Under the pieces are notes generated by a model. It ran no database searches. It saw nothing but the letters and a program-made list of their open reading frames with translations, and had not been told where the DNA came from. A DNA stretch of 44,621 nucleotides from Kiritimatiellia bacterium. GTDB taxonomy: Bacteria > Verrucomicrobiota > Kiritimatiellia > RFP12 > JAAYLN01. Position numbers and translations under genes: made by a program. Below are positions 18,791-38,922 of this stretch, piece after piece (within the stretch, counting starts at the first letter, position 1; each line of letters opens with the position of its first letter). Where the stretch lies: the NCBI GenBank assembly GCA_017962605.1, contig JAGCUY010000134.1, positions 1-44,621 on the forward strand, written 5' to 3'.

Positions 18791-18945
18791 CTTCCTCTCC
18801 AACCGTTCTATCTACGAATCCGTCATCTGTGGGATGGTGCCGGAGAAGTAAGAGAGCGGTTGCTTTTTGATCCCGTCTGGCGCGGCGCACCCGCCACCGC
18901 ACCTTCTTCTGCCGCGAGTTCTGCGGCGACTGCCCCGTGGAGTAG
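18791..18945 (+). repeat. Cys-tail scar, copy B (most complete)
   Basis: The only copy with both halves contiguous: SNRSIYESVICGMVPE coding (18791-18848), a small indel, then ...LFDPVWRG and the GCCGCGAGTTCTGCGGCGAC hairpin ending CCCCGTGGAGTAG at 18945. Reading frames are broken, so it is not expressed as one peptide here. Sequence 18700-18790 holds nothing else recognisable. Confidence 0.65.
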
Positions 18946-18948: not shown

Positions 18949-19051
18949 GCTCGATTTCTGAACGAGTGGTTGAAAATTGACCGATGAATTAGGGCAAAGC
19001 GGCGAATTGTTGCCGCTAGTTGTGTTTTTTTCGGGTTGGCACGGAGTTTGC
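18949..19051 (+). promoter_or_regulatory. Sigma-54 promoter P3 with enhancer dyad
   Basis: Dyad GCTCGATTTCTGAAC (18949-18963), GAGT, GGTTGAAAATTGACC (18968-18982); 55 bp to the -24 GG (19038-19039); -12 GC at 19050-19051 in TTGGCACG-GAGT-TTGC. An AGCGGC/GCCGCT hairpin followed by a T-run (about 18997-19032) lies between. Confidence 0.88.
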
Positions 19052-19215: not shown

Positions 19216-19881
19216 ATGGAAAAGTACGAAATAGCGACGTTCGAGAAAGAGGTGTCGGCATGTGCCAATCTAGAGGAGTTGGTGTGGAAGGTTAAGAGCG
19301 TGTTTTACCGAATGCCAGGTGCTTTTGCGCTTGAGTGTTTTGCAAGGGTCATGACGGCCGACTTGCCACACCCGCTGAAGGCGGCGACATGGCGGGCGGT
19401 TCGCTACTCGCATATCTGGTGGAGTGTGGACGATGTGCTGAAAGGCGATGTTTTGGACAATCCTCTGGTTCGGCGGGCATTCGTCGATGCCGTGCCGATG
19501 CGCCGCCAGATTGTAGAACTCCGTCTACCCGGATGGGAGGATTTGTTGCCGACCTTGTCGGAGTATGACATTGAGATATTCTCCCGTGAAGCGCATGAGA
19601 TGACGAAGCGGCAGACGTTGATCGCATCCATCACGCACGGAGAAGATGACGCATTGCCCGAATACCTGCGCGAAAGTTTCTCCGTAGAGGAGGTTAGCGA
19701 TTTCACCGATGCCAGAGGGAACGGCATCCTTTGGTATCTGACATACCGGCAAGACCAGCAAGCAATTGGCGGTTACGGCTGCACCAAAACAGCACGCACT
19801 TTGATGGAGATGGGGGCCGATCCCTTTCGGCTGAATGACCTTGGCCTGTGCTGGAACGATGTGTCTCGGCATTTCGTTTAG
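19216..19881 (+). CDS. Orphan protein with ankyrin-like C-terminal segment (221 residues)
   Basis: The N-terminal 150 residues are unrecognised and helical. The C-terminal part reads DARGNGILWYLTYR...TARTLMEMGADPFRLNDLGLCWNDV, a degenerate ankyrin-like pair of helices with the G-x-DP-x-x-x-N turn. The same module ends the proteins encoded at 26454-27470 and 30321-31403, so these three orphans share a family feature. The start follows TTTTGAGGGTGGCGCG. It is probably the second gene of the P3 transcript, 24 bp after the FtsK-gamma-like micro-ORF. Confidence 0.7.
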   Translation: MEKYEIATFEKEVSACANLEELVWKVKSVFYRMPGAFALECFARVMTADLPHPLKAATWRAVRYSHIWWSVDDVLKGDVLDNPLVRRAFVDAVPMRRQIVELRLPGWEDLLPTLSEYDIEIFSREAHEMTKRQTLIASITHGEDDALPEYLRESFSVEEVSDFTDARGNGILWYLTYRQDQQAIGGYGCTKTARTLMEMGADPFRLNDLGLCWNDVSRHFV

Positions 19882-19912: not shown

Positions 19913-20015
19913 GCTCGATTTCTGAACAGGTGGTTGAAAATTGACCGGTCAGCTAGGCAGAAGCGGCCATTTTTGGCCGCTTTTGGCGTCTTTTGAGGGG
20001 TGGCACGGGTGTTGC
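19913..20015 (+). promoter_or_regulatory. Sigma-54 promoter P4 with enhancer dyad and embedded terminator
   Basis: Dyad GCTCGATTTCTGAAC (19913-19927), AGGT, GGTTGAAAATTGACC (19932-19946); 55 bp to the -24 GG (20002-20003); -12 GC 20014-20015 in TGGCACG-GGTG-TTGC. AAGCGGCCA/TGGCCGCTT hairpin (19961-19982) plus T-run between. 19882-19912 holds no gene. Confidence 0.88.
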
Positions 20016-20052: not shown

Positions 20053-20376
20053 ATGAAAAGTGATACGATTGCCAACGGGAGCGTCTTCACCGATTTTACG
20101 CTTGTCTCGTATGATGTGGATTCCGGGAGGATGCTGATTAAGAAGCAGTTTGACGATGGATCCGAATGGCTCGAACCAGTCGCGATTTTCATCCCGGACT
20201 TGTTCTTCATGTTCAAGACGGAAGGCATTGATCCGACGGAAATGACCAATGAGCTCTGTTTTGAGTTCCATAAGGTGAAGATAAAAGTCGGGGTGATGAC
20301 CACGACAACTTATGTTGAAGACGATGACCTCTATTCCGACACTTACTACTATTCATGTGATGCGGTGAGGGAATGA
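20053..20376 (+). CDS. Orphan small acidic protein (107 residues), sigma-54 driven
   Basis: Not recognised. Predicted all-beta, strongly acidic: alternating hydrophobic segments FTLVSYDVDS, EPVAIFIPDLFFMF, LCFEFHKVKIKVGVM and a Tyr/Asp-rich end. No signal peptide or cysteine motif. The start follows AGAAAGGAACAACTTAAAGAC, 38 bp after the -12 element of P4. Single-gene unit followed by a Cys-tail scar. Confidence 0.65.
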   Translation: MKSDTIANGSVFTDFTLVSYDVDSGRMLIKKQFDDGSEWLEPVAIFIPDLFFMFKTEGIDPTEMTNELCFEFHKVKIKVGVMTTTTYVEDDDLYSDTYYYSCDAVRE

Positions 20377-20735: not shown

Positions 20736-21047
20736 ATGACAAACAGAAAGCAGTTGGCGGCATTCCGCGAGCAGTTGTCCGCGCAAACGGGACGTGCCGT
20801 CCCAAGGCTGGCAGACTGGGCCGCGGCCTTTCGTGAACTTGACGCTTCGCTTGATGTTCCCGGCCGCAAGGTCGTGCTTCTGGACGAAGTCTCATGGATG
20901 TGGTGGCGCAACTTCGAGAACGGCATCCTCACCGACGACCCCGCCCTGGTCGCTCCGCTTGTCGAGCAGTTCGATTCCGTCTGGCGCGGCGACTTCTGCC
21001 GCGACTGCGGCCGGCGCGAGTTCTGCGGCGACTGCCCCATCTCATAA
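20736..21047 (+). pseudogene. ATPase fragment fused to the Cys-rich tail
   Basis: 103 residues. The first half (AAFREQLSAQTGRAVPRLAD ... KVVLLDEVSWM) corresponds to about residues 69-114 of the DUF234-type ATPase encoded on the opposite strand next door, i.e. the Walker B region without Walker A. It then joins the repeat-encoded tail FDSVWRGDFCRDCGRREFCG (two CxxC pairs) at 20973. A remnant of a paralogous ATPase joined to the scar. It overlaps, antisense, the 3' end of the neighbouring gene. Whether the chimera is expressed cannot be told. Confidence 0.6.
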
Positions 21048-22600: not shown

Positions 22601-22702
22601 TTTGGGCACGAAACATGCGAAATAGTATATTTCGTGCCCATATATGGCGGATATGGCAAACAGCAACCACTCTTGTGCAGTGGCAATCGCACCACATAGT
22701 CC
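22601..22702. repeat. GGGCACGAAA palindrome element, copy 2
   Basis: GGGCACGAAA (22604-22613) pairs with TTTCGTGCCC (22630-22639). The stretch up to the enhancer dyad matches 12835-12936 with few changes, so the palindrome plus enhancer unit exists twice. Confidence 0.75.
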
Positions 22703-22805
22703 GCTCGATTTCTGAACAGGTGGTTGAAAATTGACCGATGAACGAGGCGAAAGCGGCCATTTTTGGCCGCTTTTGGCGTCTTTTGAGGGGTGGCACGGAT
22801 GTTGC
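22703..22805 (+). promoter_or_regulatory. Sigma-54 promoter P5 with enhancer dyad and embedded terminator
   Basis: Dyad GCTCGATTTCTGAAC (22703-22717), AGGT, GGTTGAAAATTGACC (22722-22736); 55 bp to the -24 GG (22792-22793); -12 GC 22804-22805 in TGGCACG-GATG-TTGC. AAAGCGGCCA/TGGCCGCTTT stem (22750-22773) with T-run between. Drives the first GyrB-like/DnaB-like pair. Confidence 0.9.
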
Positions 22806-22838: not shown

Positions 22839-23933
22839 ATGGATGAAATCCTGACATTGACACCCGTTGAGCATATCCGGCTACGGACGGGGATGTATAT
22901 GCCCACCACCGATGGCAAACCCGCCGAAGGGGCGTGGGATGGGCTTCTTTTCGAGCTTTCCGCTTTTGGAGTGCGTGCATTCGCGCGAGGAGAGGCTAGT
23001 CGCATTGAAATCAACTTCAACCAGGAGACAGGATCGCTCTCCTTTAGCCATGACGCTCCCGAAGTCAAATTGTTCCGCTATGCCGCAAAAAACCTTGACT
23101 CCTATTATGATTGTGGGGAGTTGAGAGCTCTTCACTCCGACAAGGCGGCACAGGAAGCATGCCAGACGCGGTATAATGAACTTCTGTTCACGATCGTCAA
23201 CGCCCTGTCGGCGAAACTCACCATGGAAGTATTCCAAGGCGACGAGTGGTATTCCGTAACATGCCGTGATGGGACCGTCGGCCCCGTCGAACGGCTGATG
23301 CCGGAGCTGGCCAAGCCGGTGCAGGGTCCTTATTTCAACATCCGGTTCACAATCAGTCAAAGATTCCTGCCGGAAAGCGAGAACTGCCCCTACTCCGAAG
23401 AACGGCTTCAGGACTTTGCCGACTGCCTCGCATGCGCACATCCCGGCCTGCGCGTCATTTTCAACGGGCGCGAGCATCTGCACAAGCGGGGCCTTGAGGA
23501 TTTCGTTGCGGAGCATATCGGGAACGACCAGGCGGACATCCTGATGGAGCCGGCAACGTTCCATTGCGGCGACGTGTCGTTTTCATGCGGTGCGAGGAAA
23601 CGGCCGGATGGTGCACGGCGTATCTTCGGCCAGGCGTTCATCAATGGCCGCAGGGTTCAATCATCGGCGATTCTGGCGATGTTCTCGGAGTTGGTCTGCG
23701 ACTGGATCGGCGATGCCCGCGCATTCCGGCAGGGAGGCTATGAGCTTGTTTTCGCCATTTCCGGAAAGTTGCCGTATGATGCCGATGATTTCCGCACTGC
23801 CGATAGAGTCGTTGACATCTGCCTATCCTCGTGGGTGGACGCCAATGAGATGCGCGACAACCCCGTTTTGGCGCGGTTTGTTTCGGCGGTGAAGCGATGC
23901 ATGATCGACGCCTTTGCGGGGATGCGGCGATGA
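22839..23933 (+). CDS. GyrB N-terminal-like protein with degenerate ATP site (copy 1)
   Basis: 364 residues, colinear with the 43-kDa ATPase/transducer half of GyrB/ParE. VEHIRLRTGMYMP matches VRKRPGMYIG; ASRIEINFNQETGSLSFSHD matches the strand before DDGRGIP; ELLFTIVNALSAKLTMEVF matches VVNALS; PYFNIRF and LRVIFNGREH fit the end of the GHKL fold; later segments fit the transducer. The catalytic Asn of the N-box is gone (FELSAFGVRAF), DDGRGIP is reduced to HDAP, and the GGLHGVG lid is missing, so ATP hydrolysis is unlikely. No Toprim or C-terminal domain. A paralogue is at 28386. The next gene overlaps as ATGA. Role unknown; possibly a structural or decoy gyrase-like clamp. Confidence 0.7.
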   Translation: MDEILTLTPVEHIRLRTGMYMPTTDGKPAEGAWDGLLFELSAFGVRAFARGEASRIEINFNQETGSLSFSHDAPEVKLFRYAAKNLDSYYDCGELRALHSDKAAQEACQTRYNELLFTIVNALSAKLTMEVFQGDEWYSVTCRDGTVGPVERLMPELAKPVQGPYFNIRFTISQRFLPESENCPYSEERLQDFADCLACAHPGLRVIFNGREHLHKRGLEDFVAEHIGNDQADILMEPATFHCGDVSFSCGARKRPDGARRIFGQAFINGRRVQSSAILAMFSELVCDWIGDARAFRQGGYELVFAISGKLPYDADDFRTADRVVDICLSSWVDANEMRDNPVLARFVSAVKRCMIDAFAGMRR

Positions 23934-24595
23934 AAAACGAACTAGCCATTCAGGGAATTGAGTCAATTGCGCAAACAGGACCGATTGAGCCGGGACTCGT
24001 CCTGATCGTCGGCGACCCCAGCTTGCCGAGGCTGGAATGCGCTTTCGCGCTTGGAAGGAAAATCGCCGAGATAGACGGTGGCGAGTCGATGGCGCTTTGG
24101 TCATGGCTGCCGTCCCTGGCGCTGGGCGAGGTCCAGTTGGTGGACGCCTCATGGCGCGAGTGCCACCGCTGGACGCTGCCCCTGCGGGCGTTGGCGGCGG
24201 AATCGCAGCCGGGGACGGCCTGGGCCGGGGATTATCCCGACGCCTTTCTAACGCGCGATGTCGCCGACGGACTGAACGGACAGGCCACGCCCGGCATTCG
24301 CCGCTTGCTGGATGGCATCAGACATGGAGTCGCCGTGCTGGATATCAGGTATCACCTGGATTTTGACGGATTGCGTGACCTGAACGCAGCCGCTAAGGAC
24401 TGCGGAACGACTGCTATCGTCCACAATACATTGTACAATACCCAACTCGAGCCATACCCGCTCGACTCTTACGCCCAGCTGGCGCTTAAAATCTGCGTGG
24501 AACAAGGTGTGAACCTTGGGGAGTGCGCCACGAAAATCGTCGTCTTTGAGAATGAGAAGTATGGAACTGGATACAAAGTCCGCGTGCTAGACTGA
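23930..24595 (+). CDS. DnaB/RecA-fold-like protein without Walker A (copy 1)
   Basis: 221 residues. The start GLVLIVGDPSLPRLECAFAL aligns with DnaB-type GxLxVIxARPSMGKTAxAL, but the GKT is replaced by PRL, so no P-loop remains. Next MALWSWLPS matches the VAFFSLEMS strand, VAVLDIRYHLDFDGLRDLNA the Walker B/helix region, AAKDCGTTAIVHNT the LAKELNVPVIALSQ strand, and KIVVFENEKYGTGYKVRVL the IxKNRxGPTGxVxL end. This reading is by eye. The ATG at 23930 overlaps the previous stop (ATGA), so it is translationally coupled to the GyrB-like gene. The paralogue at 29465 has the same arrangement. Converges on the truncated repeat at 24580. Confidence 0.65.
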   Translation: MKNELAIQGIESIAQTGPIEPGLVLIVGDPSLPRLECAFALGRKIAEIDGGESMALWSWLPSLALGEVQLVDASWRECHRWTLPLRALAAESQPGTAWAGDYPDAFLTRDVADGLNGQATPGIRRLLDGIRHGVAVLDIRYHLDFDGLRDLNAAAKDCGTTAIVHNTLYNTQLEPYPLDSYAQLALKICVEQGVNLGECATKIVVFENEKYGTGYKVRVLD

Positions 24596-26350: not shown

Positions 26351-26416
26351 GATTCCGTCTGGCGCGGCGACTTCTGCCACGACTGCGGCCGCCGCGAGTT
26401 CTGCGGCGACTGCCCC
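26351..26416 (+). repeat. Cys-tail scar, copy E
   Basis: 66 bp GATTCCGTCTGGCGCGGCGA... to GACTGCCCC, encoding DSVWRGDFCHDCGRREFCGD then CPV and a TAG at 26420. It lies 28 bp after hipA and 31 bp before the right 110-bp repeat, i.e. inside the inserted segment. Confidence 0.7.
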
Positions 26417-26446: not shown

Positions 26447-26556
26447 CCGCGTGCTAGACTGATTGAAAGGCCGCGAGCGCCCTTTGCGCCTTCATGATTG
26501 AGCTGCAGGTCAGGTCAAGGCGGTTGGGGGCATTGGGGTCGCATCCCAACGCCAGG
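26447..26556. repeat. 110-bp direct repeat, right copy flanking HipBA
   Basis: Pairs with 24580-24689 (108 of 110 identical). It starts with the CCGCGTGCTAG end of a DnaB-like gene, although that gene is not here. This shows the block was duplicated when hipBA entered between the DnaB-like gene and the convergent orphan. Confidence 0.85.
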
Positions 26557-27470
26557 AGCGCGGCCTCAAGTGCCTTATAATCTCTTTCGTCTTCCCATGG
26601 AAGGTTCCCGCTCCGGTAAATGGAATACCAGAAGGCGCTGTTGCCAAAGATGTCCCGCGCGTTTGCGACCGTTCCGGGGGAATCGTCGTCGATGGCTTGC
26701 AGAAGGCGGATGGCCACCGGCGCCGCCACGGACGAGGCGCAGAACAGGACGAGCGGGACGACGGCCAGCTGCTGCGACAGCGCCTTGAGATTCGCCGCGA
26801 GGATTTCCACGGCGCCTTCCTGAAGCATGAAGAGGAAGAGATTGCGTGTCATGCGTCTGCCGCATAGCGAACGCGCGATGGCGAACCGCGCAGGGCTGTC
26901 GTCCTCGATGGCCTGTCGCAGACTTTCAGGCAGATTGTTCGCGAAGGAGTTGGGGAAATAGTGGTAAAAGTCGGAGGGGCAAAAAGAGGCCGGGAAGGTC
27001 GGCGCCTCGGTCCCGTTGATTCTTGCCGCAAAGGCATCCTTTTCGAGTAGATGATTAAAAAAGAGCCGCCCCGTTGTCCAGTGACGGCCCATCATCTGCG
27101 GCACACAGAAAAGCGCCCGGGAATCGGAAGTAAGGATGCTGGACGAGTAGATTATGCCGTCATAAAGGACTGCCGTTCGCCGCACCCGGCTTCCGATTGC
27201 CGCCAGAAATGCCTGCCGGTCATACGGCAATGTCGCCAGAAAGGCAGGATGAAAGAGGTCCAGGATGCGGAACGATGAGACGAAAACGAAATCGGTGGAA
27301 AGCAGAAGGTGCGGCGTATCGTTTGGCATGCCTAAAGCGGGGTCGATGCGTTTCATTTTGTGTATTTCAACCAGGAGCTCCACCTGCTCTCTGGGCGACA
27401 GCTTCTTTGCGGCACGTTCGTCGTAGTCCGACACCAGCCGGACCATCTCTTCTTGTGACATTTTCTCCAT
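26454..27470 (-). CDS. Orphan protein with ankyrin-like C-terminal segment (338 residues), sigma-54 driven
   Basis: Unrecognised. Helical protein whose C-terminus repeats the pattern DDDSPxxxxxARxxxG, FWYSIYRSGNLPW and LLALGCDPNAPNRLDLT, which is ankyrin-like and shared with the 19216 and 30321 proteins. An earlier DDSPARFAIARSLCGR segment (about 187-203) looks like another copy of the same repeat. P6 predicts transcription from about 27471, so the first ATG (27470) would be leaderless. The ATG at 27461, preceded by GGAG, is a plausible true start. The 3' end is duplicated at 24580-24689. Divergent from the DUF6946 gene, with adjacent enhancer halves. Confidence 0.7.
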   Translation of the reverse strand: MEKMSQEEMVRLVSDYDERAAKKLSPREQVELLVEIHKMKRIDPALGMPNDTPHLLLSTDFVFVSSFRILDLFHPAFLATLPYDRQAFLAAIGSRVRRTAVLYDGIIYSSSILTSDSRALFCVPQMMGRHWTTGRLFFNHLLEKDAFAARINGTEAPTFPASFCPSDFYHYFPNSFANNLPESLRQAIEDDSPARFAIARSLCGRRMTRNLFLFMLQEGAVEILAANLKALSQQLAVVPLVLFCASSVAAPVAIRLLQAIDDDSPGTVANARDIFGNSAFWYSIYRSGNLPWEDERDYKALEAALLALGCDPNAPNRLDLTCSSIMKAQRALAAFQSV

Positions 27471-27482: not shown

Positions 27483-27567
27483 GCAACATCCGTGCCATGC
27501 CAGTTGCAGTGGACAAATCTATGGCTGGCGGCCAGTTTGAGGGGCAAACAATGCTCAAATTCTGTCC
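27483..27567 (-). promoter_or_regulatory. Sigma-54 promoter P6 (minus strand)
   Basis: Minus strand TGGCACG-GATG-TTGC: -24 GG at 27496-27495, -12 GC at 27484-27483. Enhancer motif GGACAGAATTTGAGC on the minus strand (27567-27553) lies 56 bp from the -24 GG. It abuts, through AGCT, the motif serving P7, so the divergent pair shares one dyad. Confidence 0.82.
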
Positions 27568-27644
27568 AGCTGGTCAAATATTGGACGGCCAAGGTGCGCC
27601 ACGATGCGGTTTTGACCGTTTTTTTGCCTTGGCACGGAGTTTGC
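27553..27644 (+). promoter_or_regulatory. Sigma-54 promoter P7 with shared enhancer dyad
   Basis: Dyad GCTCAAATTCTGTCC (27553-27567), AGCT, GGTCAAATATTGGAC (27572-27586); 44 bp to the -24 GG (27631-27632); -12 GC 27643-27644 in TTGGCACG-GAGT-TTGC. Drives 27683 and probably the downstream second GyrB/DnaB-like pair. Confidence 0.88.
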
Positions 27645-27682: not shown

Positions 27683-28414
27683 ATGAAAATAGTATCACCA
27701 CTGAATCCAGAAAAAGAACTGGACACCCTGTCCTCATGGAAGGACGCATTCATCGCAATCGACAAGAATCCCGGACACTGGAAGGAGGGGCGGAGCGCCT
27801 GCACGCTCGCCCGGTATTTCCTCTCAGGGAGGGGCGAGCCGGAGGTCATCGCGGCAATAAATGGCCTCCTTGACGGGGATTCCGTTGAAGGGCTTGAGCG
27901 AGGGGAAATAGAAACGCCATGCCCGTTCGATGATTATCTGAACCCCCGCCGTCAGGACATGGGCATCTGGGGGAGAACAAAGAGTGGCCGCCGCTTTTTC
28001 GTCGGGGTCGAGGCGAAAGTCGATGAGTCATTCTCGGAAAACACCCTTGGCTCTGCGCTAATCGAGGCGGCGAAGACAAAAGCAGATAAGCCGAAAAGCC
28101 ACGCCGTTGACCGTATCGCTGGGCTTTGCGATTGGTTCGGGGTTTCGCCGGAAGACGAGGCGGTTCGCAATCTCCGCTACCAGCTGTTCCACTTCACGAA
28201 GGGGACTGCCGATGTGAAAAACGTTGACATCAGCATCATGCTGCTCCTGACGTTCCACACGCCCGAATATGACTCCAGGAAAGGGGAGGGGAACGCCGCC
28301 GACTGGCAGGCGTTTGTCAATCGCTTCTTCGTGCCGGTCCAGGGCGGATACAAGTTGAACATCGCCAATTGCGCATCCACGGTTTATGCGGTTGAGAAGA
28401 TCGTCATTGATTGA
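27683..28414 (+). CDS. DUF6946-like protein with PD-(D/E)XK-type motif
   Basis: 243 residues. It follows the DUF6946 pattern: W-x-x-GRSACTLARYFL near the start, RRQDMGIWGRT then FFVGVEAKVDESF (D92 ... E110-A-K112, a nuclease-like triad), DRIAGLCDWFG, LRYQLFHFTKG and an SIMLLLTFH strand. This suggests a restriction-endonuclease fold; activity is not proven. Start 27683 follows AGAAGGATAAAGCAGAA and lies 39 bp after the -12 of P7; the ORF's upstream extension to 27197 crosses the promoter and is not real. The 3' end overlaps the next gene by 29 bp. Confidence 0.7.
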   Translation: MKIVSPLNPEKELDTLSSWKDAFIAIDKNPGHWKEGRSACTLARYFLSGRGEPEVIAAINGLLDGDSVEGLERGEIETPCPFDDYLNPRRQDMGIWGRTKSGRRFFVGVEAKVDESFSENTLGSALIEAAKTKADKPKSHAVDRIAGLCDWFGVSPEDEAVRNLRYQLFHFTKGTADVKNVDISIMLLLTFHTPEYDSRKGEGNAADWQAFVNRFFVPVQGGYKLNIANCASTVYAVEKIVID

Positions 28415-29468
28415 GCATATCAGGCGGCGCCTGGGCATGTATGTGCCCGTGGAGGGAAATGGCGTTCCCCAGTTCGCGGCGTGGGACATCCTCTTGCATG
28501 ACCTCGCCACGGACGGCGTTGGCGCCTTCGCGCGTGGCGAGGCCGGCGAGATCGACATCTGCTTCAACGAGGAGACGGGGGCTGTGACCATTGGCCATGA
28601 CGGGCCGAGGAAAAATACGCTTGGCCGTGTCGTCAAGGCATTGGACTCTGGCATGCTCGATGAAAAAGGGGATGGCGGGGAGGCCGGAGGGGCGCCGGGG
28701 GCCCTTGCCACCCACTACGGCGAGTTGAAATACGCGATCATCAACGCGCTGTCTCGCGAAGTCACGGCGGAATCGTTCCTCGACGGGAAATGGCAGGCCG
28801 TGCGGTGCGGCAACGGCAATGTCGGCCCAATTGAGGATTTGATGCCCGGACTAGTCGATCCGGGAACGGAACGGTTCTTCAGGTTCCGCTTTGTCGTCGA
28901 TCCGCTGTATTTGCCGGACGACGGCGATTGTTCGCCCTTCTCGGAGAAGATGTTCCATGTCTTTGGGGAAAGCTTGGCGCGCGACCATCCTGGCCTTCGT
29001 GTGGTTGTAAACGGACACGAATATGTCTTTCACGACGACGCGGAGGGGTTGGTTGCGAAGTTGATTGCTGAAAGCGGCGAGGAAATCCTCATGGCGCCTG
29101 TCGTCTCCCGTCGCGGGGATGTCACGCTTGCCTGCGGGGCGACGCGCCGTAAAGGGATTGGGCGTAAAATCGTCTGCCGGGTCTTCCTGAACGGCAATGA
29201 GACCCAGGCCGACGAATTGCTGTTGGATTTGTCCCAGTCGGCCAGCAACTGGATTTGCTCATGCCGCGTTTTCCAGTCATGCGGCTATGATTTCCATTTG
29301 GTGGCTTCGGTGCGCGTGCCAGTAAATGACGCGACTGCCCCATGGATAGACTATGTCTGCTCCTCCTGGGATGAGTCGGATGACGATTCTTACCAGTCTC
29401 ACACGCTGCAAGCGAACTCAATGCTGAATCGCTGTCTCATCGATGTCTTTGCGGGGATGCAGAAATGA
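28386..29468 (+). CDS. GyrB N-terminal-like protein with degenerate ATP site (copy 2)
   Basis: 360 residues, paralogue of 22839-23933 along the whole length. Shared landmarks: IEHIRRRLGMYVPV, FARGEAGEIDICFNEETGAV, ELKYAIINALSREV, NVGPIEDLMPGL, HPGLRVVVNG, and the shared C-terminal end LIDVFAGMQK. The GyrB N-box (ILLHDLATDGVGAFA) again lacks the catalytic Asn, and the GxHGxG lid is absent; GHDGP is all that remains of DDGRGIP. It starts inside the 3' end of the DUF6946 gene (29-bp overlap) and its stop overlaps the next ATG (ATGA), so all three are translationally linked. Likely transcribed from P7. Confidence 0.7.
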   Translation: MRLRRSSLIEHIRRRLGMYVPVEGNGVPQFAAWDILLHDLATDGVGAFARGEAGEIDICFNEETGAVTIGHDGPRKNTLGRVVKALDSGMLDEKGDGGEAGGAPGALATHYGELKYAIINALSREVTAESFLDGKWQAVRCGNGNVGPIEDLMPGLVDPGTERFFRFRFVVDPLYLPDDGDCSPFSEKMFHVFGESLARDHPGLRVVVNGHEYVFHDDAEGLVAKLIAESGEEILMAPVVSRRGDVTLACGATRRKGIGRKIVCRVFLNGNETQADELLLDLSQSASNWICSCRVFQSCGYDFHLVASVRVPVNDATAPWIDYVCSSWDESDDDSYQSHTLQANSMLNRCLIDVFAGMQK

Positions 29469-30109
29469 GAATAGACATGCGGAATGTTGAACTTGGCGAT
29501 GTCGGCCCGGGCCTTGTCCTGATAGCCAATTGCTGTGAGTTATACTCATGGGATGATATCGCGCTAAACGCTTGCGAATTGGTCGCCGCATCGCGGCATG
29601 CCGACCGGATTACATTCTGGTCCTGGAAAGCGGCTTTTGAAACAAGGAACGTCTTTCTGGTTGACGCCTCGTGGCGCGAGAGCCACCGGTGGACATTGCC
29701 GATTGAGGCCCTGGCCGAGAATAGTCCCTCTGGAACGACATGGGTGGGTGATTCGATTGATGAAGTCAAGGCGCACGAATGTGCCAATGTGCTGGAGCAC
29801 CCGACGGGATTGTGGGGATGCCTGTTTGACGGCATGGATGGTGAGATGGCAATCATAGAATTCAGTGAGGAATTGGGATTTGAGGAAATATGCCATTTGA
29901 ACGCGGCGGCGAAGGCCAGCGGCAAGATCGCGGTCACCTGCGCCGAATTGCGCGATGCGAAGAACAAAAGGTATGCATTTGACTCCTACGCCGAACTCGC
30001 CATGCGCGTCTGCCTGGAGCGTGGCGTCAACTTAGACGAATGCGCGGCTAAAATATTAGTCGTAACCGAACCCGCGGAGGATGAGTACCAAGTCCGCGTC
30101 CTTGTCTGA
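29465..30109 (+). CDS. DnaB/RecA-fold-like protein without Walker A (copy 2)
   Basis: 214 residues, paralogue of 23930-24595: GPGLVLIANCCELYSWDDIA (P-loop lost), ITFWSWKAAF, VFLVDASWRESHRWTLPIEA, LNAAAKASGKIAVTCAEL, YAFDSYAELAMRVCLERGVN and the end KILVVTEPAEDEYQVRVLV. DASWRE(C/S)HRWTLP is the most conserved segment of the pair and may be the functional surface. ATGA overlap with the preceding GyrB-like gene, as in copy 1. Confidence 0.65.
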   Translation: MRIDMRNVELGDVGPGLVLIANCCELYSWDDIALNACELVAASRHADRITFWSWKAAFETRNVFLVDASWRESHRWTLPIEALAENSPSGTTWVGDSIDEVKAHECANVLEHPTGLWGCLFDGMDGEMAIIEFSEELGFEEICHLNAAAKASGKIAVTCAELRDAKNKRYAFDSYAELAMRVCLERGVNLDECAAKILVVTEPAEDEYQVRVLV

Positions 30110-30182: not shown

Positions 30183-30275
30183 GCTCAGTTTCTGATCAGT
30201 TGGTAAGTTTTTGGGCGGGGGAAAGGGGGATATGGCTTGTTTTTGACCAATTTTGAGACTTGGCACGGCAATTGC
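30183..30275 (+). promoter_or_regulatory. Sigma-54 promoter P8 with enhancer dyad
   Basis: Dyad GCTCAGTTTCTGATC (30183-30197), AGTT, GGTAAGTTTTTGGGC (30202-30216); 45 bp to the -24 GG (30262-30263); -12 GC 30274-30275 in TTGGCACG-GCAA-TTGC. Drives the 30321-33936 operon. Confidence 0.88.
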
Positions 30276-30320: not shown

Positions 30321-31403
30321 ATGGCAAATTCAAACGAGAAAAATGCAATGGCTGACATCGCCCGTCAATCGGCCAAAATGTGGGAGCAGGGTTCCCCGCT
30401 TCGCGAGATCTCGCTTTTCATCGTCAAGTCGATGGAGTCGTTTTGCGGGAAAAAGCCCCTCTCGCATGAGGCCGGGGCACCATGCGGCGTCGGCATGTTC
30501 CATCCCTTCAACATGGCCGCCATGGATGTTAACGCCCTGCGCCGTCTCTGCACTGCAATCCACAACATGGGGCGTCGGAAGCTCCGCGCCTACATGGCCG
30601 TGCTTGAGGGGGGCGACCTCTTCCCGCAGGAGGTCAAGACTGGCCTTTGGATGCACTACATGGGCCTTACGACATGCCTCTGCGGCAACATGACGGGCTC
30701 GGCGCTGGAGGACTGGCTGAAGCCATATCTCACCCTTTGCGTGGCCATGTGCGCCGAGGGGCATGAAATCCTGCGCATGATGGAGCCAAGCGTCGCCGGG
30801 ATGCCGTCGCGGAAATACAAGGTGAGCCAGCGTCTCGCGGAGTCCTTCCTGCGCGACGACGTGGCGGCATACGAGATTGAGCGGCACATCGAAGGCGTCC
30901 GCTTTACCAAGACGGTGGTGCGGGACATGCTTGCCGACGAGCATGGGCGGTGCATCGTCTCCCGTCTGATAGAGGAGGAGCCTGCCTTCATGGAGGCCTT
31001 TGACGCGAAGGAGATGCTCTTCTACGTCTGCGCCAACTGCAAGGACTTCGGCAAGACGGCCGCGCTGGCGAAGTCGCTTGCGGGAATCTCCCCCGGCCTC
31101 ATCCGGTGCGAGGACGCCTTTGGCCAGACGCCGCTTGACTGGACCCTTCTGAGGCTGCGGCGCCATGAACTGAAGGACAGTGACCTTGACGATTGCCTCG
31201 CGCAAATGCGGACGCTGGCGTCGGTCCTGGTTGGGCTTGGCTCCGATCCTCACCACCGAAACAAATACGGCATCTCATACAGCGACGTGGAGAGGCAGCT
31301 CGTTTCGCGCGAGCAGCTGCGGACCGAGTGGGTGCTGGATGTCGGTAAGCCCGAATGGAGGAACATGCGGCTTAGGAACTACAGGAAACAAAGGAAAGGA
31401 TAA
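30321..31403 (+). CDS. Orphan protein heading a MoxR/DUF2201 operon (360 residues)
   Basis: Unrecognised, helical. The C-terminal third has a degenerate ankyrin-like end: CEDAFGQTPLDWTLLRLRRH ... LVGLGSDPHHRNKYGISYSDV, the same pattern as the 19216 and 26454 proteins. The very end is basic (RNYRKQRKG). A Cys/Met-rich middle (TTCLCGNMTG, LCVAMCAEGHEILRMM) has no known motif. ATG 30321 is 46 bp after the -12 of P8; the MoxR gene follows after 3 bp. Possibly an adaptor or substrate for the AAA/VWA pair (inference from operon position). Confidence 0.7.
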   Translation: MANSNEKNAMADIARQSAKMWEQGSPLREISLFIVKSMESFCGKKPLSHEAGAPCGVGMFHPFNMAAMDVNALRRLCTAIHNMGRRKLRAYMAVLEGGDLFPQEVKTGLWMHYMGLTTCLCGNMTGSALEDWLKPYLTLCVAMCAEGHEILRMMEPSVAGMPSRKYKVSQRLAESFLRDDVAAYEIERHIEGVRFTKTVVRDMLADEHGRCIVSRLIEEEPAFMEAFDAKEMLFYVCANCKDFGKTAALAKSLAGISPGLIRCEDAFGQTPLDWTLLRLRRHELKDSDLDDCLAQMRTLASVLVGLGSDPHHRNKYGISYSDVERQLVSREQLRTEWVLDVGKPEWRNMRLRNYRKQRKG

Positions 31404-31406: not shown

Positions 31407-32558
31407 ATGGCAGCGAACGAACGCAAGGAAAAAGTGGCGATTGACATTCACAACAAGGTTACGGGCGAAGAGCTCGAGAAGTTGCTGAAGCGGCAACTGA
31501 AGGAGCTGATGGAGCGGCCCGAGGCGGCGAAGGAGCTGCCGCCGCTCATGGTCTGGGGCGCGCCGGGCCTAGGCAAGTCCAGCATCCTGCGCGACGTGGC
31601 TTCCGACCTCGGCATCGGCTTCATCGACGTGCGCCTCGCGCAGCGCGAGCCGGTGGACATCCGCGGGCTGCCCGTGCCGGGGCCCGACGGCGTGAAGTGG
31701 CTCGTCGCAAGCGAATGGCCGCGCGACCCGGCGTCCCGCGGGATCATCCTCTTCGACGAGATCACCGCGGCCGACCGCTCCCTGCAGGTGGCCGCCTACG
31801 AGTTCATCCTCGACCGCCGCCTTGGCGAACTCTACCAGGTGCCGGACGGCTGGTACATCTGCGCGGCCGGCAACCGCACCGAGGACCGCGCCGTCTCCAC
31901 GACGATGTCGTCCGCGCTCGCGAACCGCTTCCTGCACGTCGAGCTGCAGGAGGACGTCGAGAGCTGGATCGCATGGGCGCGGACCCACAACATCCACCCC
32001 TCTGTGACGGGCTTCATCCGCTTCCGCCCGGGCTGCCTCTTCCGCCAGGAGGGCGAGAACCTCGAGCGCGGCTGGCCGACACCCCGCGCCTGGGAGCGCG
32101 TGAGCCGCATGCTCAAGATGTTCGGCGAGGACGAGGAGCTCCTTCTGCGGAAGGTAGTTTACGGGCTCGTCGGCAACCGCGCGGGCGTCGAGTTCATGGA
32201 GTTCCACAAGAGCAGCGTGACCTTCGACGATGTCCTGACGATGATGACAGACCCTGAGGCCCCGGTGCGCATCCCCGACGCGGCGGATCGCAAATACGCC
32301 CTCTGCGCGGCGATGACCTACCTGCTCTGGCGCGGCCGCGACGCCGACGACGAGGCGCGGCGCATCGACGGCTTCTACCGCATCTGCATGGCGATGTCGA
32401 GCGACTTCGCCTCGATGGCGATGATGGACGCGATGGCCGGAAACAAGCGCGAGTCCGATCCTGTTTTCGCCGAAAAGCTCTTCCGCCACCCGCGCTTCAA
32501 GGAGTGGTCGGACAAGCACGGCAAGTCCCTCCGCAAGCGCTACTCGATTAAAGTCTGA
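31407..32558 (+). CDS. MoxR-family AAA+ ATPase
   Basis: 383 residues. Walker A GAPGLGKS at 51-58, the MoxR-type segment RLAQREPVDIRGLP, Walker B GIILFDEI at 112-119, then AADRSLQVAAYEFILDRRLG (helix-2 insert region), sensor AAGNRTED and arginine-finger ALANRFLH. MoxR ATPases act as chaperones with VWA-domain partners, and the next gene supplies one. Its base composition is GC-rich like the housekeeping block, unlike the mobile genes nearby. Middle gene of the P8 operon. Confidence 0.9.
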   Translation: MAANERKEKVAIDIHNKVTGEELEKLLKRQLKELMERPEAAKELPPLMVWGAPGLGKSSILRDVASDLGIGFIDVRLAQREPVDIRGLPVPGPDGVKWLVASEWPRDPASRGIILFDEITAADRSLQVAAYEFILDRRLGELYQVPDGWYICAAGNRTEDRAVSTTMSSALANRFLHVELQEDVESWIAWARTHNIHPSVTGFIRFRPGCLFRQEGENLERGWPTPRAWERVSRMLKMFGEDEELLLRKVVYGLVGNRAGVEFMEFHKSSVTFDDVLTMMTDPEAPVRIPDAADRKYALCAAMTYLLWRGRDADDEARRIDGFYRICMAMSSDFASMAMMDAMAGNKRESDPVFAEKLFRHPRFKEWSDKHGKSLRKRYSIKV

Positions 32559-32631
32559 AGCTTTGTTTTCGATTGCACCCGGCCAACGATTGCAGCCGAA
32601 AATCCAAACAAGCAAAACACGGGAGTTGGAA

Positions 32632-33936
32632 ATGCCCCTAACAGACAAGGAACTGGCGAAACTCAAGAAGACGACGCTTGCGCTGATGTGCCAGGACCGG
32701 CAGAAGCTGCTGGTGCGCTTCCCCTTCACGGGCGGCTTTTTGATGCGGCTGGAGTTCATCCCCGTCCGCGACAAGCGGCTGAGGACGGCGGCCACGGACG
32801 GCGAGCGCGTCTTCATGGACCTCTCCTTCTGCTCCAAGCTCAGCGCCGACGAGCGGCTGTTCGTCATGGCGCACGAAGCCTGGCACTGCGTAATGATGCA
32901 CATGCTCCGCTGCCAGGACCGCGACGAACGACTCTTCAATGTCGCGGCGGACATGGAGGTGAACCGGATGCTCTCGAAGGAGGGGCTGAACCCGCCGCAA
33001 TGGGTCCTCATGCCGAAGGACAACTGGAGCGACCTCTCGGCGGAGGAGATGTATGAGCGGCTCCAAAGACGACGCCCTGCGCCGCCCCAGTCCGGCGCCG
33101 CAAAAGCCGGCGGCTCCGATGGCGACGGGGCTGAGGGCAATGGGCTGTCCGGCCAGTTCGACCGCCATATCCACAACGGGAAGGACGAGGAGGAAGAGCA
33201 GGGCGGCGGAGGCGGGGCGACGGTGACGGACGAGTGGGGCGAGGTCGGTTTTGACAAGGACTTCAGGCCGTCAATCCCAAAGGGGATTGCGGACAAGATA
33301 CGCGAGCGCATCGTCGCCGTCGCGCAGCAGATGCAGCGCACACGGGGCACCATTCCGGAGCATTTGGAAAGCCTCGTCAGCGCCGCGCTGCGCCCGCAGA
33401 TCCGCTGGCAGGAAGTGCTGGCGCAGTTCGTCACAAGCTGCTATGGCGGGTCGCGGCGGTGGCTGCCGCCAAGCCGACGCCACCTGGGAAGCGGCCTCTA
33501 CCTGCAAAGCTCGCGCAAGGAGTGTCTCCGCGCCGTAGTCGCCATCGACACAAGCGGCAGCACGACTGCTGACCTCCCGCAGTTCTTCGCGGAGCTCGGC
33601 TCGCTCCTCGAAACTTTCGGGGACTACGAGCTGACGGTCATCCAGTGCGACTGCGAAATCCAGCATGTCGAGCGCTTTGATGTCTCAAACCCTTTCCATT
33701 CGCCTGAATGGGAGACCTACGGACATGGCGGGACGGACTTCCGTCCGCCCTTTGAATACGTCGCCGACCATTCCGAAATAGAGCCGTCCTGTTTCATCTA
33801 CATCACGGATGGCTGCGGCCCCGCGCCGGACAATCCGCCGCCATATCCGGTCCTGTGGATACTTACGGACGACGGCGAGAAGCCCGCCCCCTGGGGCTGG
33901 GAGTTGAGGCTGAAGTCGAAAAACCGAAAATACTGA
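32632..33936 (+). CDS. DUF2201 putative metallopeptidase with VWA-like domain
   Basis: 434 residues. The N-terminal zinc-peptidase-like domain has HEAWH at 81-85 (HExxH form), followed by NVAADMEVNRML. A Gly/Glu-rich linker (about 180-205) leads to a VWA-like domain with the MIDAS motif DTSGS near 306 and FIYITDGCG near the end. This is the usual partner of MoxR-type ATPases; together they probably form a metal-dependent remodelling or protease complex whose target is unknown. ATG 32632 follows GGGAGTTGGAA; the ORF extends to 32563 without a ribosome site. Last clear gene of the P8 operon. Confidence 0.88.
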   Translation: MPLTDKELAKLKKTTLALMCQDRQKLLVRFPFTGGFLMRLEFIPVRDKRLRTAATDGERVFMDLSFCSKLSADERLFVMAHEAWHCVMMHMLRCQDRDERLFNVAADMEVNRMLSKEGLNPPQWVLMPKDNWSDLSAEEMYERLQRRRPAPPQSGAAKAGGSDGDGAEGNGLSGQFDRHIHNGKDEEEEQGGGGGATVTDEWGEVGFDKDFRPSIPKGIADKIRERIVAVAQQMQRTRGTIPEHLESLVSAALRPQIRWQEVLAQFVTSCYGGSRRWLPPSRRHLGSGLYLQSSRKECLRAVVAIDTSGSTTADLPQFFAELGSLLETFGDYELTVIQCDCEIQHVERFDVSNPFHSPEWETYGHGGTDFRPPFEYVADHSEIEPSCFIYITDGCGPAPDNPPPYPVLWILTDDGEKPAPWGWELRLKSKNRKY

Positions 33937-33968
33937 CAGAAAAGTTGGGTGACTTGTTCAAAAAAGTG

Positions 33969-34004
33969 TTCGCGACGCCCGCGGCGCCGCGAATTTGGTA
34001 TAAT
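33969..34004 (+). promoter_or_regulatory. Extended -10 promoter with GC-rich dyad
   Basis: TGGTATAAT (TATAAT at 33999-34004) gives an extended -10 without a clear -35. The imperfect dyad TTCGCG...CGCGAA (33969-33993), just upstream, is a likely regulator site. Belongs to the AlbA_2 gene. Confidence 0.55.
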
Positions 34005-34109
34005 GATTTACCATTGAGGCCATGTGCGCCGGAAACATCTAAACCTCCAAGGCGCGAATGCGCCAAACTTCCAAACATCCTCAGGCAATGGCGAAACACT
34101 TCCACCACC

Positions 34110-35627
34110 ATGACAATAGACGAGATAAAAATTGGCGAATCTGACCGGCTGGAATTCAAGCGGGCCTTGTCGAAGGACGATTCAAAATGGCTGAAAACCG
34201 TTGTCGCGTTCGCAAATGGACGAGGCGGGCGCATTCTGTTCGGCATCGACTCTGACCGCTCCGTCGTTGGGATGGGAGAGGATATTTTTAGCGCAAAAGA
34301 CGCCATCGCAGACGCAATAGCCAATGGCGTTCGTCCGCTCCCGCCAGTCACGATTGGCGTGATGACACTGTCCGGCAAATCTATAATCGTGCTTGAAGTC
34401 AGTCAAGGGATGCAGTGCCCCTATTATCTCCGGTCAAAGGGGGATACGGACGGCGTATATGTCCGCTACGATGCCACCACAAGGCCAGCCGACGAGAACA
34501 TCCTGAGGGAACTCCGCTTGGATGGCGCAGGAAGAAGTTTCGACCAAATCGAGGCGCGTGGCCTGTCGGTTAGTGAACGCGACATTGAGAAGCTCTGCAC
34601 GGCCATGCGGCGGACGGCAAAACGCAATGCCAAGACTGACGAGCAGAGGAAAAGCGTGAAGCCATTGACAAAGGCGCAGCTCGTCAAATGGGGCGTTTTG
34701 CTTGAACGCGGTGGCGAATTTCTCCCGACCTGGGCATTCGTACTTCTTTCCGGGAATGCGCGGCTTTCTCCGCATGTCAAATGCGGCATCTTCAAGGGAA
34801 CCGACCGGACTTTTTTTGTGGATCGCCGCGAGTTCGACAGTCCGGTGCAGGATCAAGTTGAGAGCGCCGTTCAATATGTTCTCGAAAAAATCAACATGGG
34901 GGCGAGGTTCCATGGGGCCTATCGCGAAGACGTTTACGAGATACCCCCTGACTCGATTCGCGAAATCATCGTGAACGCGATAGTTCACCGCAGCTATGTT
35001 AATGCCGAGGCGAGTCCGGTCACTGTGGCGCTCTACGACGACCGCCTTGAAGTGACATCGCCGGGAGGCCTTCCGCGTGGGATGACCCTTGCGAAGATGC
35101 TCACCGGTTATTCGGAGTGCCGTAACAAGGCCCTGGCGTCAGCCTTCGCCTACATGAACCTGATTGAGAACTGGGGCAGCGGCGTGAAACGCTATGTCGC
35201 CGAAATCAAGGCAGCGGGGCTTCGTGAGCCGGAATTTGTCGAGTGGCCAAACGCCATGCGGATTAACATCTATCGGAATAAAACCACGCCCCAGGTCACG
35301 CCCCAAGACATCGCCCAAGAAGGTCCGACGCCGACTGTGTCCCATGCAGTCACCCATGCAGTCGCCCATGCAGTCACCCATGCAGTCGCCCATGCAGTCT
35401 CGCCACAAATAAAGGCATTGCTCCAGGCTCTAAAGGACGCCCAGGGAAATGCAGAACTATTAAAAGTCTTGAAGTTGAAGAACCGCGACGATCTGCGGCT
35501 ACGCTACATCGCACCGGCTCTTTCCGCTGGGCTTATAGAGCGGACAATCCCTGACAAGCCCACAAGCCGCTTCCAGAAATATCGCCTAACGGCCAAAGGT
35601 CGCGCTGCGCTTGGGGGTTTGGTATAG
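34110..35627 (+). CDS. AlbA_2/Schlafen-type ATP-binding transcriptional regulator
   Basis: 505 residues. N-terminal AlbA_2 (Schlafen-like) domain at about 6-125: ESDRLEFKRALS, VVAFANGRGGRILFGIDSD. Residues 270-360 carry the HATPase_c_4-type segment: IREIIVNAIVHRSY, VALYDDRLEVTSPGGLP and LIENWGSGVKRY. A repeat linker (HAVTHAVA) follows, then a winged-helix end (LRYIAPALSAGLIERTIPD). The family binds DNA or RNA and often regulates stress or mobile genes. ATG 34110 lies 105 bp after the extended -10; the ORF's opening to 33855 runs over the VWA gene and promoter and is not real. Confidence 0.82.
   Translation: MTIDEIKIGESDRLEFKRALSKDDSKWLKTVVAFANGRGGRILFGIDSDRSVVGMGEDIFSAKDAIADAIANGVRPLPPVTIGVMTLSGKSIIVLEVSQGMQCPYYLRSKGDTDGVYVRYDATTRPADENILRELRLDGAGRSFDQIEARGLSVSERDIEKLCTAMRRTAKRNAKTDEQRKSVKPLTKAQLVKWGVLLERGGEFLPTWAFVLLSGNARLSPHVKCGIFKGTDRTFFVDRREFDSPVQDQVESAVQYVLEKINMGARFHGAYREDVYEIPPDSIREIIVNAIVHRSYVNAEASPVTVALYDDRLEVTSPGGLPRGMTLAKMLTGYSECRNKALASAFAYMNLIENWGSGVKRYVAEIKAAGLREPEFVEWPNAMRINIYRNKTTPQVTPQDIAQEGPTPTVSHAVTHAVAHAVTHAVAHAVSPQIKALLQALKDAQGNAELLKVLKLKNRDDLRLRYIAPALSAGLIERTIPDKPTSRFQKYRLTAKGRAALGGLV
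35341..35400 (+). repeat. In-frame 12-bp tandem repeat (CATGCAGTCRCC)
   Basis: Five units of CATGCAGTCRCC, alternating A/G at one position (a 24-bp higher-order period), encoding HAVT/HAVA. Units of 12 bp keep the frame, so copy number could vary without breaking the protein; the linker between ATP-binding and winged-helix parts would change length. Confidence 0.85.
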
Positions 35628-37300: not shown

Positions 37301-37393
37301 GGTCAGTTTTTGGCCAGACGGCTGATATTTGAGCAGATGTTGCGCATTTTTTGGCGCGAGAAGGCGCTTTTTGCGCCTTGGCACGGATGTTGC
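37301..37393 (+). promoter_or_regulatory. Sigma-54 promoter P9 with two enhancer motifs
   Basis: Motifs GGTCAGTTTTTGGCC (37301-37315) and GGCTGATATTTGAGC (37320-37334); the second is 45 bp from the -24 GG (37380-37381), matching the other promoters. -12 GC 37392-37393 in TTGGCACG-GATG-TTGC. Hairpin AAGGCGC/GCGCCTT (37361-37378) between. Confidence 0.87.
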
Positions 37394-37456
37394 GAATAGG
37401 TCATGCGGCATCCGCGTGGATGCATTGGTAAAACAACTAACGTCTGGAGCCAGTCA

Positions 37457-38020
37457 ATGAATATGGAACATAGCCAATCCCGAATCCCGAATTCCCAATC
37501 CCGTTTTATCCGCAGGCCGGTGAGGCCGTGCGTGGGCGCATCCTATTTCGGCCTTATCGCCGCCTGCTATGCTGGAATGGCCGTTTTGCTTTTCTTCATC
37601 ATGCGGACGGTCGGCTCTTCGCTTGAGCCTCTGTCTGCCTGGAGTCGCCTTGAATCGCAACCTGTCTGGCTGCGCGCCCCGTTTTTCCTGATGACGCTGG
37701 CGCTGGGCGCGCTGATGGTCGATTTCACAGGCCGCTTCGGCGCAAGTCTTATATTCGACTTGCGGCATGTGGCGCGCGTGTCGGCGCGGCGCTGGGCGCT
37801 TTACCGCCTGTCCGTCCTGTCCGCCATTTTAATCCCGCTCGGACTTTGCCTCTGCATCGCGAAGGGGGCAATCCCGTATCTTCATGGCTGGATCGGGGGC
37901 GCTCTTTTCGTGGCGCTTATTGCTCCCGCTGCCCTCGCCGCCTTTGATTTGCGTCGCGCGAGTGACGCTTCAAGAGGTTTCGTGGAACTGGGCGCCTGGC
38001 ATGGTGTAAATAATCTTTGA
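37457..38020 (+). CDS. Small integral membrane protein, sigma-54 driven (187 residues)
   Basis: No family recognised. After a hydrophilic start there are about four hydrophobic segments: YFGLIAACYAGMAVLLFFIM, APFFLMTLALGALMVDF, LYRLSVLSAILIPLGLCLCI and IGGALFVALIAPAALAAF, so it is an inner-membrane protein. Codons 8-17 (SQSRIPNSQSR) derive from a CCCGAATCCCGAATTCC-type repeat, suggesting a repeat insertion at the 5' end. ATG 37457 has TGGAG 8 bp upstream and lies 63 bp after the -12 of P9. The ORF's opening to 37403 lies in the leader. Confidence 0.65.
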   Translation: MNMEHSQSRIPNSQSRFIRRPVRPCVGASYFGLIAACYAGMAVLLFFIMRTVGSSLEPLSAWSRLESQPVWLRAPFFLMTLALGALMVDFTGRFGASLIFDLRHVARVSARRWALYRLSVLSAILIPLGLCLCIAKGAIPYLHGWIGGALFVALIAPAALAAFDLRRASDASRGFVELGAWHGVNNL

Positions 38021-38087: not shown

Positions 38088-38669
38088 ATGGAGAATATAA
38101 TGCGAGTCAATGCAAAGACACTTCCGGCAATCGCAGCCTACGCCCGCGAGGGGCGCGTCGTTGTCTTCGACACGGAGACGACGGGCTGCTCGCCGCATGA
38201 CGAAATCTGCCAGATCGCCGCAGCGGAGTATCTCCGCGGCCAGCTCTCGCGGACGCTCAGCCTTTACATCTGCCCGACATGCCCCATGAACCCATGGGCG
38301 GAGGCCGTCCACGGCCTGTCGATGGAGTTCCTCGCCGACAACGGTATCGCGCCTCCAGAGGCGATGCGGCGCTTCTTCGACTTCGTCGGCCGCGACGTCC
38401 TGCTCGTCGCGCACAACGCCACCTTCGATCTGCGGATGCTTAACAACGAGTGCACCAAGTTCGGCCTCCTCTACGCGCCTGAAGGGCTTGAGACCTGCGA
38501 CAGCCTCGCCCTCGCCCGCAAGATGCGACCCGACCTCGAAAGCCACGCCCTGGCGAAACTCATAGAGGCCCTTGGCATTGACGGCGTGAACTCCCACGAC
38601 GCCCTGGACGACGCCCTCGCCTGCGCCGGCGTCTTCTTCAAGCTTCTTCCCGATCCAGGCACGCTGTAA
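38088..38669 (+). CDS. DnaQ-type 3'-5' exonuclease (DEDDh)
   Basis: 193 residues, a stand-alone exonuclease domain as in DNA polymerase III epsilon-like proteins. Exo I FDTETTG at about 26-32, Exo II HNATFDLRMLNNE near 108-120, Exo III HDALDDA near 172-178 with the DEDDh histidine. Metal-dependent removal of 3' nucleotides from single-stranded DNA or RNA is expected. GGGGAGGC precedes ATG 38088. No polymerase gene is adjacent. It is very GC-rich, like the housekeeping genes, and is followed directly by the second MITE-like element. Confidence 0.88.
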   Translation: MENIMRVNAKTLPAIAAYAREGRVVVFDTETTGCSPHDEICQIAAAEYLRGQLSRTLSLYICPTCPMNPWAEAVHGLSMEFLADNGIAPPEAMRRFFDFVGRDVLLVAHNATFDLRMLNNECTKFGLLYAPEGLETCDSLALARKMRPDLESHALAKLIEALGIDGVNSHDALDDALACAGVFFKLLPDPGTL

Positions 38670-38691
38670 TCCTGAAATCAATCCCTTCTCT

Positions 38692-38894
38692 TAACGCAAC
38701 CGGCCTATGGCCGGACGCAAAAGCTGCGTCAAAACCGATGTGGCTACGACGCCGCCCGTGGCGGCTACGCCACAATCGCTTTTGCCGCAAGTCCATTCGC
38801 CCCACGCGAGGATCGATTGTGGCGTAGGGCATGGCCCGTCGTAGCCACATTGATGCGAGCGTAACCCTTGCGTGTCGCGAAGCGACTTGCGTTA
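38692..38894. mobile_element. MITE-like palindromic element, copy 2
   Basis: TAACGCAA (38692-38699) to TTGCGTTA (38887-38894), with the same internal 16-bp and 14-bp arms as 3754-3958. A few compensated or loop changes (CCCATGG to CCCGTGG, a 2-bp deletion). It lies 22 bp after the exonuclease stop. Confidence 0.7.
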
Positions 38895-38922
38895 GGCGCT
38901 GCGGCCGGGAGCCGGGAAAGAA

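Follow-up and report, generated by a model that had tools for sequence, protein, structure and literature searches.

The window analysed here, 44,621 nucleotides in length, is the entire contig C37 of a 4.18-Mb draft genome, and its proteins have their closest named relatives in uncultured Kiritimatiellae and other Verrucomicrobia-Lentisphaerae, mainly from ruminant guts. Between a minus-strand gene (26454-27470) and plus-strand genes (27683-30109) lie two outward-facing sigma-54 -24/-12 promoter sequences, each directly upstream of a gene. P6 (27497-27483, minus strand, TGGCACGGATGTTGC) and P7 (27630-27644, plus strand, TGGCACGGAGTTTGC) both match the TGGCAC-N5-TTGC consensus exactly, with GG at -25/-24 and GC at -13/-12, and the divergent sigma-54 promoters that a preliminary description had placed at 27483-27644 were thus found at those positions. 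We consider P6 and P7 to be predicted sigma-54 promoters, for which the dependence on RpoN and on an ATPase activator that goes with this class would be expected. Sigma-54 is encoded in the genome (PF04552 at C164, E 2.7e-55). Exact matches to TGGCAYGNNNNTTGC number 15 in the whole 4.18 Mb, and nine of these 15 fall on the 44.6-kb contig, which makes up 1% of the genome; the reversed pattern occurs once in the genome. Scans of the window or the intergenic region for Rfam families, tRNAs and sigma-70 promoters gave no relevant match.

The P6 gene (26454-27470, minus strand) encodes a protein of 338 aa, for which single-sequence structure prediction reached a pLDDT of 36. Its C-terminal part is homologous to the ankyrin-like subunit of a relative, and in locus L179 this homolog is the last subunit of an operon that encodes a double AAA protein, an AAA protein and a vWA protein. 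On the plus strand, P7 is followed by three genes. The first (27683-28414, 243 aa) encodes a DUF6946 protein (Pfam PF22187, E 2.9e-17), the second (28386-29468, 360 aa) is a paralog of the window gene at 22839-23933 (37.5% identity, E 1e-74), and the third (29465-30109, 214 aa) is a paralog of 23897-24595 (39% identity, E 4e-41). In locus L118, homologs of 22839-23933 and 23897-24595 are located between the double AAA and AAA genes. Considering that the P6 homolog belongs to the L179 operon and that the families of the second and third P7 genes appear in L118, both arms of the P6/P7 pair are parts of one gene set.

A gapless alignment of the DNA upstream of ten sigma-54 promoters, namely all nine on the contig and one on contig C72, revealed an inverted repeat of 34-36 bp with the consensus TCAATTTyTGACCAGnTGGTCArAAATTGAC. 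Between P6 and P7 there is a single dyad of this kind, at 27552-27587 with its axis at 27569.5 (TGCTCAAATTCTGTCCAGCTGGTCAAATATTGGACG). When the matrix was built without the P6/P7 dyad, this site scored 28.6 and 26.2 bits in its two orientations and was the only new site in the contig; the next best scores were 16.7 bits, from an overlap of the dyad at 37379, and then 11.5 bits. These scores support the proposal of the preliminary description that one dyad serves both directions and, with the concentration of exact promoters on this contig, indicate that the arrangement is not due to chance. A profile combining dyad and promoter returned the same ten sites, and no others, at E < 1e-12 in the genome, and the next match had an E of 0.008. 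This next match (G000 contig C5:1407, L006) has a consensus sigma-54 promoter in the neighbourhood of a GAF-type activator and no dyad. Since 132 of the 44,585 windows of 36 bp are equally self-complementary, palindromy by itself was set aside as evidence, and the case for the P6/P7 dyad rests on the common motif. A reading of the site as direct repeats (TTTTGACC units, 19 bp apart) was also rejected, as the aligned sites form an inverted repeat.

The same arrangement recurs in relatives. In their island loci, the dyad was found at 30 of 33 exact sigma-54 sites and at 86 of 3000 random positions (about 3%), in a scan that spanned 250 bp with a matrix trained on this genome alone; the share of 30/33 is biased upwards, and window-like spacings are favoured, because promoter and spacer were part of the profile with which the loci had been fetched. 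Three further divergent pairs with one common dyad each are present in these relatives. One is in L075 (named copy L119, RUG572), where the dyad lies 42 bp from the promoter of a double AAA gene and 31 bp from the opposite promoter, which precedes a homolog of the P6 gene. The other two are in L123 (Lentisphaeria, RGIG3449), at distances of 43/45 and 42/105 bp. A blind search with a gapped pattern for divergent exact sites 106-135 bp apart, run over 162 genomes of the order, had matches in only six, and the reversed pattern in no genome. One match is the window and one the L075 locus; the other four genomes have a different dyad. In these four (L155, L156, L157 and L158), divergent sigma-54 promoters surround a dyad of the TTGTAA/TTACAA type, which represents a second enhancer family arranged in the same way; accordingly, the divergent layout appears to be used by another activator too.

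The distances between the dyad and the promoters follow the helical phase of DNA. The 56 bp and 44 bp given in the preliminary description for P6 and P7, respectively, were reproduced exactly in the reverse register, and in the forward register the distances are 54 bp to P6 and 42 bp to P7. Measured from the dyad axis to the first T of the promoter, P7 lies at 60.5 bp, in the main phase, and P6 at 72.5 bp, in the main phase plus one turn. In this genome, the forward-register distance from the 3' end of the dyad to the first T divides the ten promoters into two groups of five, at 42-43 bp and at 53-54 bp. Over 45 promoters from the genome and its relatives, the spacing is 42-45 bp in 34, 30-32 bp in three, 105 bp in one, 38 bp in one and 53-55 bp in six, although these six are not all independent, since three of them, all on this contig, are repeat copies of each other and a fourth resembles them less closely. 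Taking the main class as zero and a helical turn as 10.5 bp, the 53-55 class lies at +1 turn, the 30-32 class at -1 and the 105-bp site at +6, and the 38-bp site (L082/L051) is off phase as the lone exception to the rule. On the one hand, both distances in the window therefore fit the helical-phase rule that had been proposed for them. On the other hand, the allowed phases number more than the two originally suggested, with at least three (-1, 0 and +1 turn) besides +6. A conserved upstream dyad on a fixed face of the DNA is what would be expected of an upstream activator site, and we consider the dyad to be a putative enhancer.

The preliminary description further assigned the left half of the dyad to P6 and the right half to P7. 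If each promoter used its own half of the palindrome, the two halves should be separable by mutation, and the near symmetry of the dyad (36.9 and 35.1 bits in its two orientations) would be compatible with such a division. However, every promoter, single or divergent, has a complete dyad of 34-36 bp, and the spacing fits the whole dyad in one register. The half-site assignment is therefore unsupported. Fis-type activators of this class are established to bind dyads as dimers, which also argues against the use of separate halves, and we give this explanation almost no credence.

Another explanation is that the dyad serves P7 alone, P6 being a dead promoter or a chance match. The spacing of P7 is the commonest and that of P6 a rarer one, and the predicted transcription start of P6 coincides with the start codon of its gene, both of which would agree with an inactive P6. 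Against this, P6 fits all specified positions of the consensus, its gene family lies behind a divergent sigma-54 site with a common dyad in L075/L119 as well, and the 53-55 spacing recurs in five other promoters. Accordingly, we regard a dyad with P7 as its sole client as very unlikely.

Seven other units of dyad and sigma-54 promoter are distributed over the window, all on the plus strand. The unit at 346-438 is predicted to drive a double AAA protein (468-2744, IetA-like), and that at 12938-13039 to drive 13055-13744 and, further on, a TmtA-like gene (13909-18699). Those at 18950-19051 and 19914-20015 precede 19216-19881 and 20053-20376, respectively, and the one at 22704-22805 precedes 22839-23933 and 23897-24595, the paralogs of the second and third P7 genes. 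The unit at 30184-30275 would drive 30321-31403, an AAA gene (31407-32558), a DUF2201/vWA gene (32563-33936) and an SLFN/AlbA_2 gene (33855-35627), and the last unit, at 37302-37393, would drive 37403-38020 and a DEDDh exonuclease gene (38088-38669). The similarity of the double AAA protein to IetA is confined to the ATPase domain, and no IetS-type protease was found among the Pfam-scanned genes of the window. With regard to MoxR-vWA ternary systems, the AAA protein at 31407 gave only weak AAA matches, the DUF2201 vWA protein at 32563 is a clear match, and no counterpart of the third effector module was recognised. No relatives of the double AAA protein were found in viral contigs. In relatives, the dyad-driven genes encode a GmrSD restriction enzyme, a PIF1/RecD-like helicase, an FtsK/HerA-like ATPase, histidine-phosphatase proteins and, in L117, a DUF6946-like protein.

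Judging from their sequences, the dyad-driven genes are probably of the defence type. Curated defence families matched by them include TmtA (E 5e-163), GmrSD and HEC-06/SspE-like proteins, and the dyad-driven gene set differs between genomes, as it does in defence islands. Both observations speak against a house-keeping or stress regulon unrelated to defence against phages or mobile elements. Nevertheless, AAA/vWA pairs can also serve as chaperones, as RavA-ViaA does (PMC10585395), and most of the products are characterised by sequence alone. A regulon of this kind is thus a serious alternative, although we consider it rather unlikely.

The genome encodes four sigma-54 enhancer-binding proteins: a DHH-like one on contig C187, an NtrC-type response regulator on C54, and GAF-type proteins on C92 and C5. 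The C187 protein consists of an N-terminal sensor domain, an AAA+ domain and a Fis-type HTH, and in the fetched island loci of relatives only one kind of enhancer-binding protein occurs, which is homologous to the C187 protein over its full length. Among 59 genomes, the N-terminal domain of this activator and the dyad profile were both present in 18, the profile only in eight, the activator only in three and neither in 30 (Fisher p 1.8e-6). When the comparison was confined to genomes at least 90% complete, the corresponding counts were 14, 3, 2 and 15 (p 9e-5); within family f5 by itself, the association was not significant (p 0.6). Several of the eight dyad-positive genomes without a detected activator are incomplete, and several of their dyad matches are weak. 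RpoN is present in 56 of the 59 genomes, so sigma-54 alone fails to explain the co-occurrence. Of the 18 genomes with both, 13 have dyad and activator on a common contig, and in L120 a dyad promoter lies upstream of a gene pair encoding the double AAA protein and the activator. Based on these associations, we consider that the C187 enhancer-binding protein is probably the activator of the dyad promoters.

It is also conceivable that the dyad and its phase rule are real and that the activator is another protein, namely the NtrC-type one on C54 or a GAF-type one on C92 or C5, with the DHH-like protein as a passenger of the same islands. In this genome, the activator candidate is encoded on C187, off the window. 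None of the contigs fetched for the four enhancer-binding proteins was found to have a dyad, and the DHH-like protein is missing from some relatives that do have the dyad. In the fetched island loci, by contrast, the DHH-like protein has no competitor, and its linkage to the dyad on common contigs and the promoter arrangement in L120 also speak against this reading. We therefore judge the involvement of one of the other three proteins to be unlikely.

The activator also extends beyond the order, into other classes of the phylum, with 16 of 145 phylum genomes in all. In several of these non-order genomes, its neighbours are homologous to the double AAA, AAA, vWA and exonuclease genes. With the dyad matrix from this genome, scores outside the order are weak, except in L174, which is from the same genome as L123.

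The sensor domain of the C187 protein was predicted by AlphaFold with a pLDDT of 80.6. In Foldseek searches, its best named matches, among viral models, were DHH phosphohydrolases and RecJ (E 1e-4 to 1e-3), and matches in the PDB, to CDC45 and RecJ, were weak. Sequence-profile comparison with RecJ-type DHH proteins was not significant. The predicted structure thus points to a DHH-type domain by fold only. Of the catalytic motifs, DHH was found in none of 22 sensor sequences, and no DxDG was present at the motif position. Considering the DHH-like fold and the absence of these motifs, it is plausible that the sensor binds a nucleotide or nucleic acid without cleaving it. The C187 protein has the sigma-54 AAA domain and Fis-type HTH of the RtcR family, and a CARF sensor was not found in it, as three RtcR models left the N-terminal part uncovered and Pfam gave no match. 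The sensor domain of this activator is of a kind for which the literature search gave no earlier description.

Taking these results together, we consider it likely that P6 and P7 form a divergent pair switched from one dyad, most likely by the C187 activator, which would thereby co-induce defence-type genes. From promoter consensus, dyad, phase, conserved arrangement, co-occurrence and linkage of the activator, and predicted sensor fold, we infer the binding, the looping, the transcription in both directions, the signal and the antiphage function that follow. The sensor would meet a signal, perhaps a nucleotide or nucleic-acid fragment arising from infection or stress, whereupon the activator would bind the dyad and assemble its ATPase ring. 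Across a loop as short as 60 or 72 bp, it would open the sigma-54 polymerase at P7 or P6, and the distances, one turn apart, would place the dyad on a permitted DNA face for each promoter. Activation of the nine promoters on the contig would co-induce a defence-type gene set, and the divergent pair would coordinate two parts of a single gene set linked to AAA/vWA. As a single activator ring is likely to contact only one promoter at any moment, P6 and P7 may be competitors that are co-induced on average. A wider proposal is that many Verrucomicrobiota, both Kiritimatiellae and other classes, possess an inducible immune regulon under sigma-54. Its activator, with a catalytically dead DHH sensor, would respond to an infection-linked nucleotide signal and, from one strictly phased dyad per promoter, switch on defence gene sets that vary in content, divergent units with one common dyad included; we see the arguments for and against this generalisation as evenly balanced.

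Divergent sigma-54 promoters with activator sites in a common intergenic region are familiar from zraP/zraSR of E. coli and nifF/nifLA of Klebsiella, which differ from P6/P7 in their activators (ZraR and NifA), genes and sites. A closer likeness is found in orp1/orp2 of Desulfovibrio vulgaris, where divergent sigma-54 operons depend on one enhancer-binding protein, DVU2106, and on palindromic sites (PMC3897727). In that system, however, the two operons have separate activator sites (at -131 and -88) and the DNA is bent by IHF, whereas P6 and P7 have one dyad between them, at 60 and 72 bp. In terms of regulated genes, RtcR-associated CoCoNuT superoperons, in which a sigma-54 activator is predicted to control large sets of defence genes (eLife 2024, PMC11090510), resemble the present system in combining an activator of a Rossmann-like sensor, AAA and HTH with many defence genes. 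The AAA-HTH part of the C187 protein finds its best match in the PADLOC model RtcR_PspF2 (E 1.8e-95). Unlike in RtcR, the C187 sensor is DHH-like and matches neither the CARF part of the RtcR models nor Pfam, and unlike in the CoCoNuT superoperon, there are many separate promoters with one dyad each. The gene set itself is reminiscent of MoxR-vWA conflict systems, in which an AAA ATPase stands beside a vWA protein in a conflict-type operon (eLife 2020, PMC7159879), but here it also has a double AAA protein and an ankyrin-like subunit; the text of that paper contains neither 'sigma54' nor 'promoter'.

Our literature search found no paper that connects defence islands with sigma-54 or an enhancer-binding protein with a DHH domain, the nearest being that on RtcR and CoCoNuT. 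The common upstream regions of divergent sigma-54 operons (orp) and the predicted control of defence genes by sigma-54 activators with nucleotide-type sensors (RtcR/CoCoNuT) were already known. The type of sensor, a regulon with one dyad per promoter in strict phase, and its spread in Verrucomicrobiota are new, in that the search found no description of them. P6/P7 would then be one site of a defence-type regulon with an identifiable candidate activator. We know of no account of the transcriptional control of most bacterial defence genes, and the combination of this dyad with a phased sigma-54 promoter may offer a signature by which uncharacterised defence genes can be found through their switch. 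The switch has a named candidate protein, whose sensor domain offers a handle for finding its ligand, and P6/P7 would be a natural test of how one enhancer divides its activator between two promoters one turn apart.

Several further features were observed around the dyad promoters. The first ATG lies at +1 to +5 of the predicted start in about nine of 32 dyad-driven genes, including that of P6 and those behind dyad promoters in L074, L076, L087 and L117, which suggests leaderless messages. In the 53-bp class, a hairpin (AAAGCGGCC...GGCCGCTTT) followed by T-rich DNA, resembling an intrinsic terminator, lies between dyad and promoter (12978-13012, 18990-19024, 19955-19985 and 22745-22775), and the P7 control region has a smaller hairpin at 27606-27619. 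An inverted repeat (GGGCACGAAA...TTTCGTGCCC) is located about 190 bp upstream of two dyad promoters, at 12838-12875 and 22604-22640, with a third copy just before 22604, and may be another operator or the end of a mobile element. A stretch of about 130 bp at 20907-21038 has 74-91% DNA identity to sequences near the same islands in genomes of other families, and fragments of it are present at 26351-26416, 12450-12504 and 18867-18943; it gave no Rfam match, and the overlapping plus-strand ORF (20736-21044) gave no Pfam match. Finally, repeats of 160 bp (85% identity) and 229 bp (96.5%) occur near the ends of the island, at 3583-3981 and 38691-39076, in swapped order, and they are possible boundaries of a mobile or recombining region.
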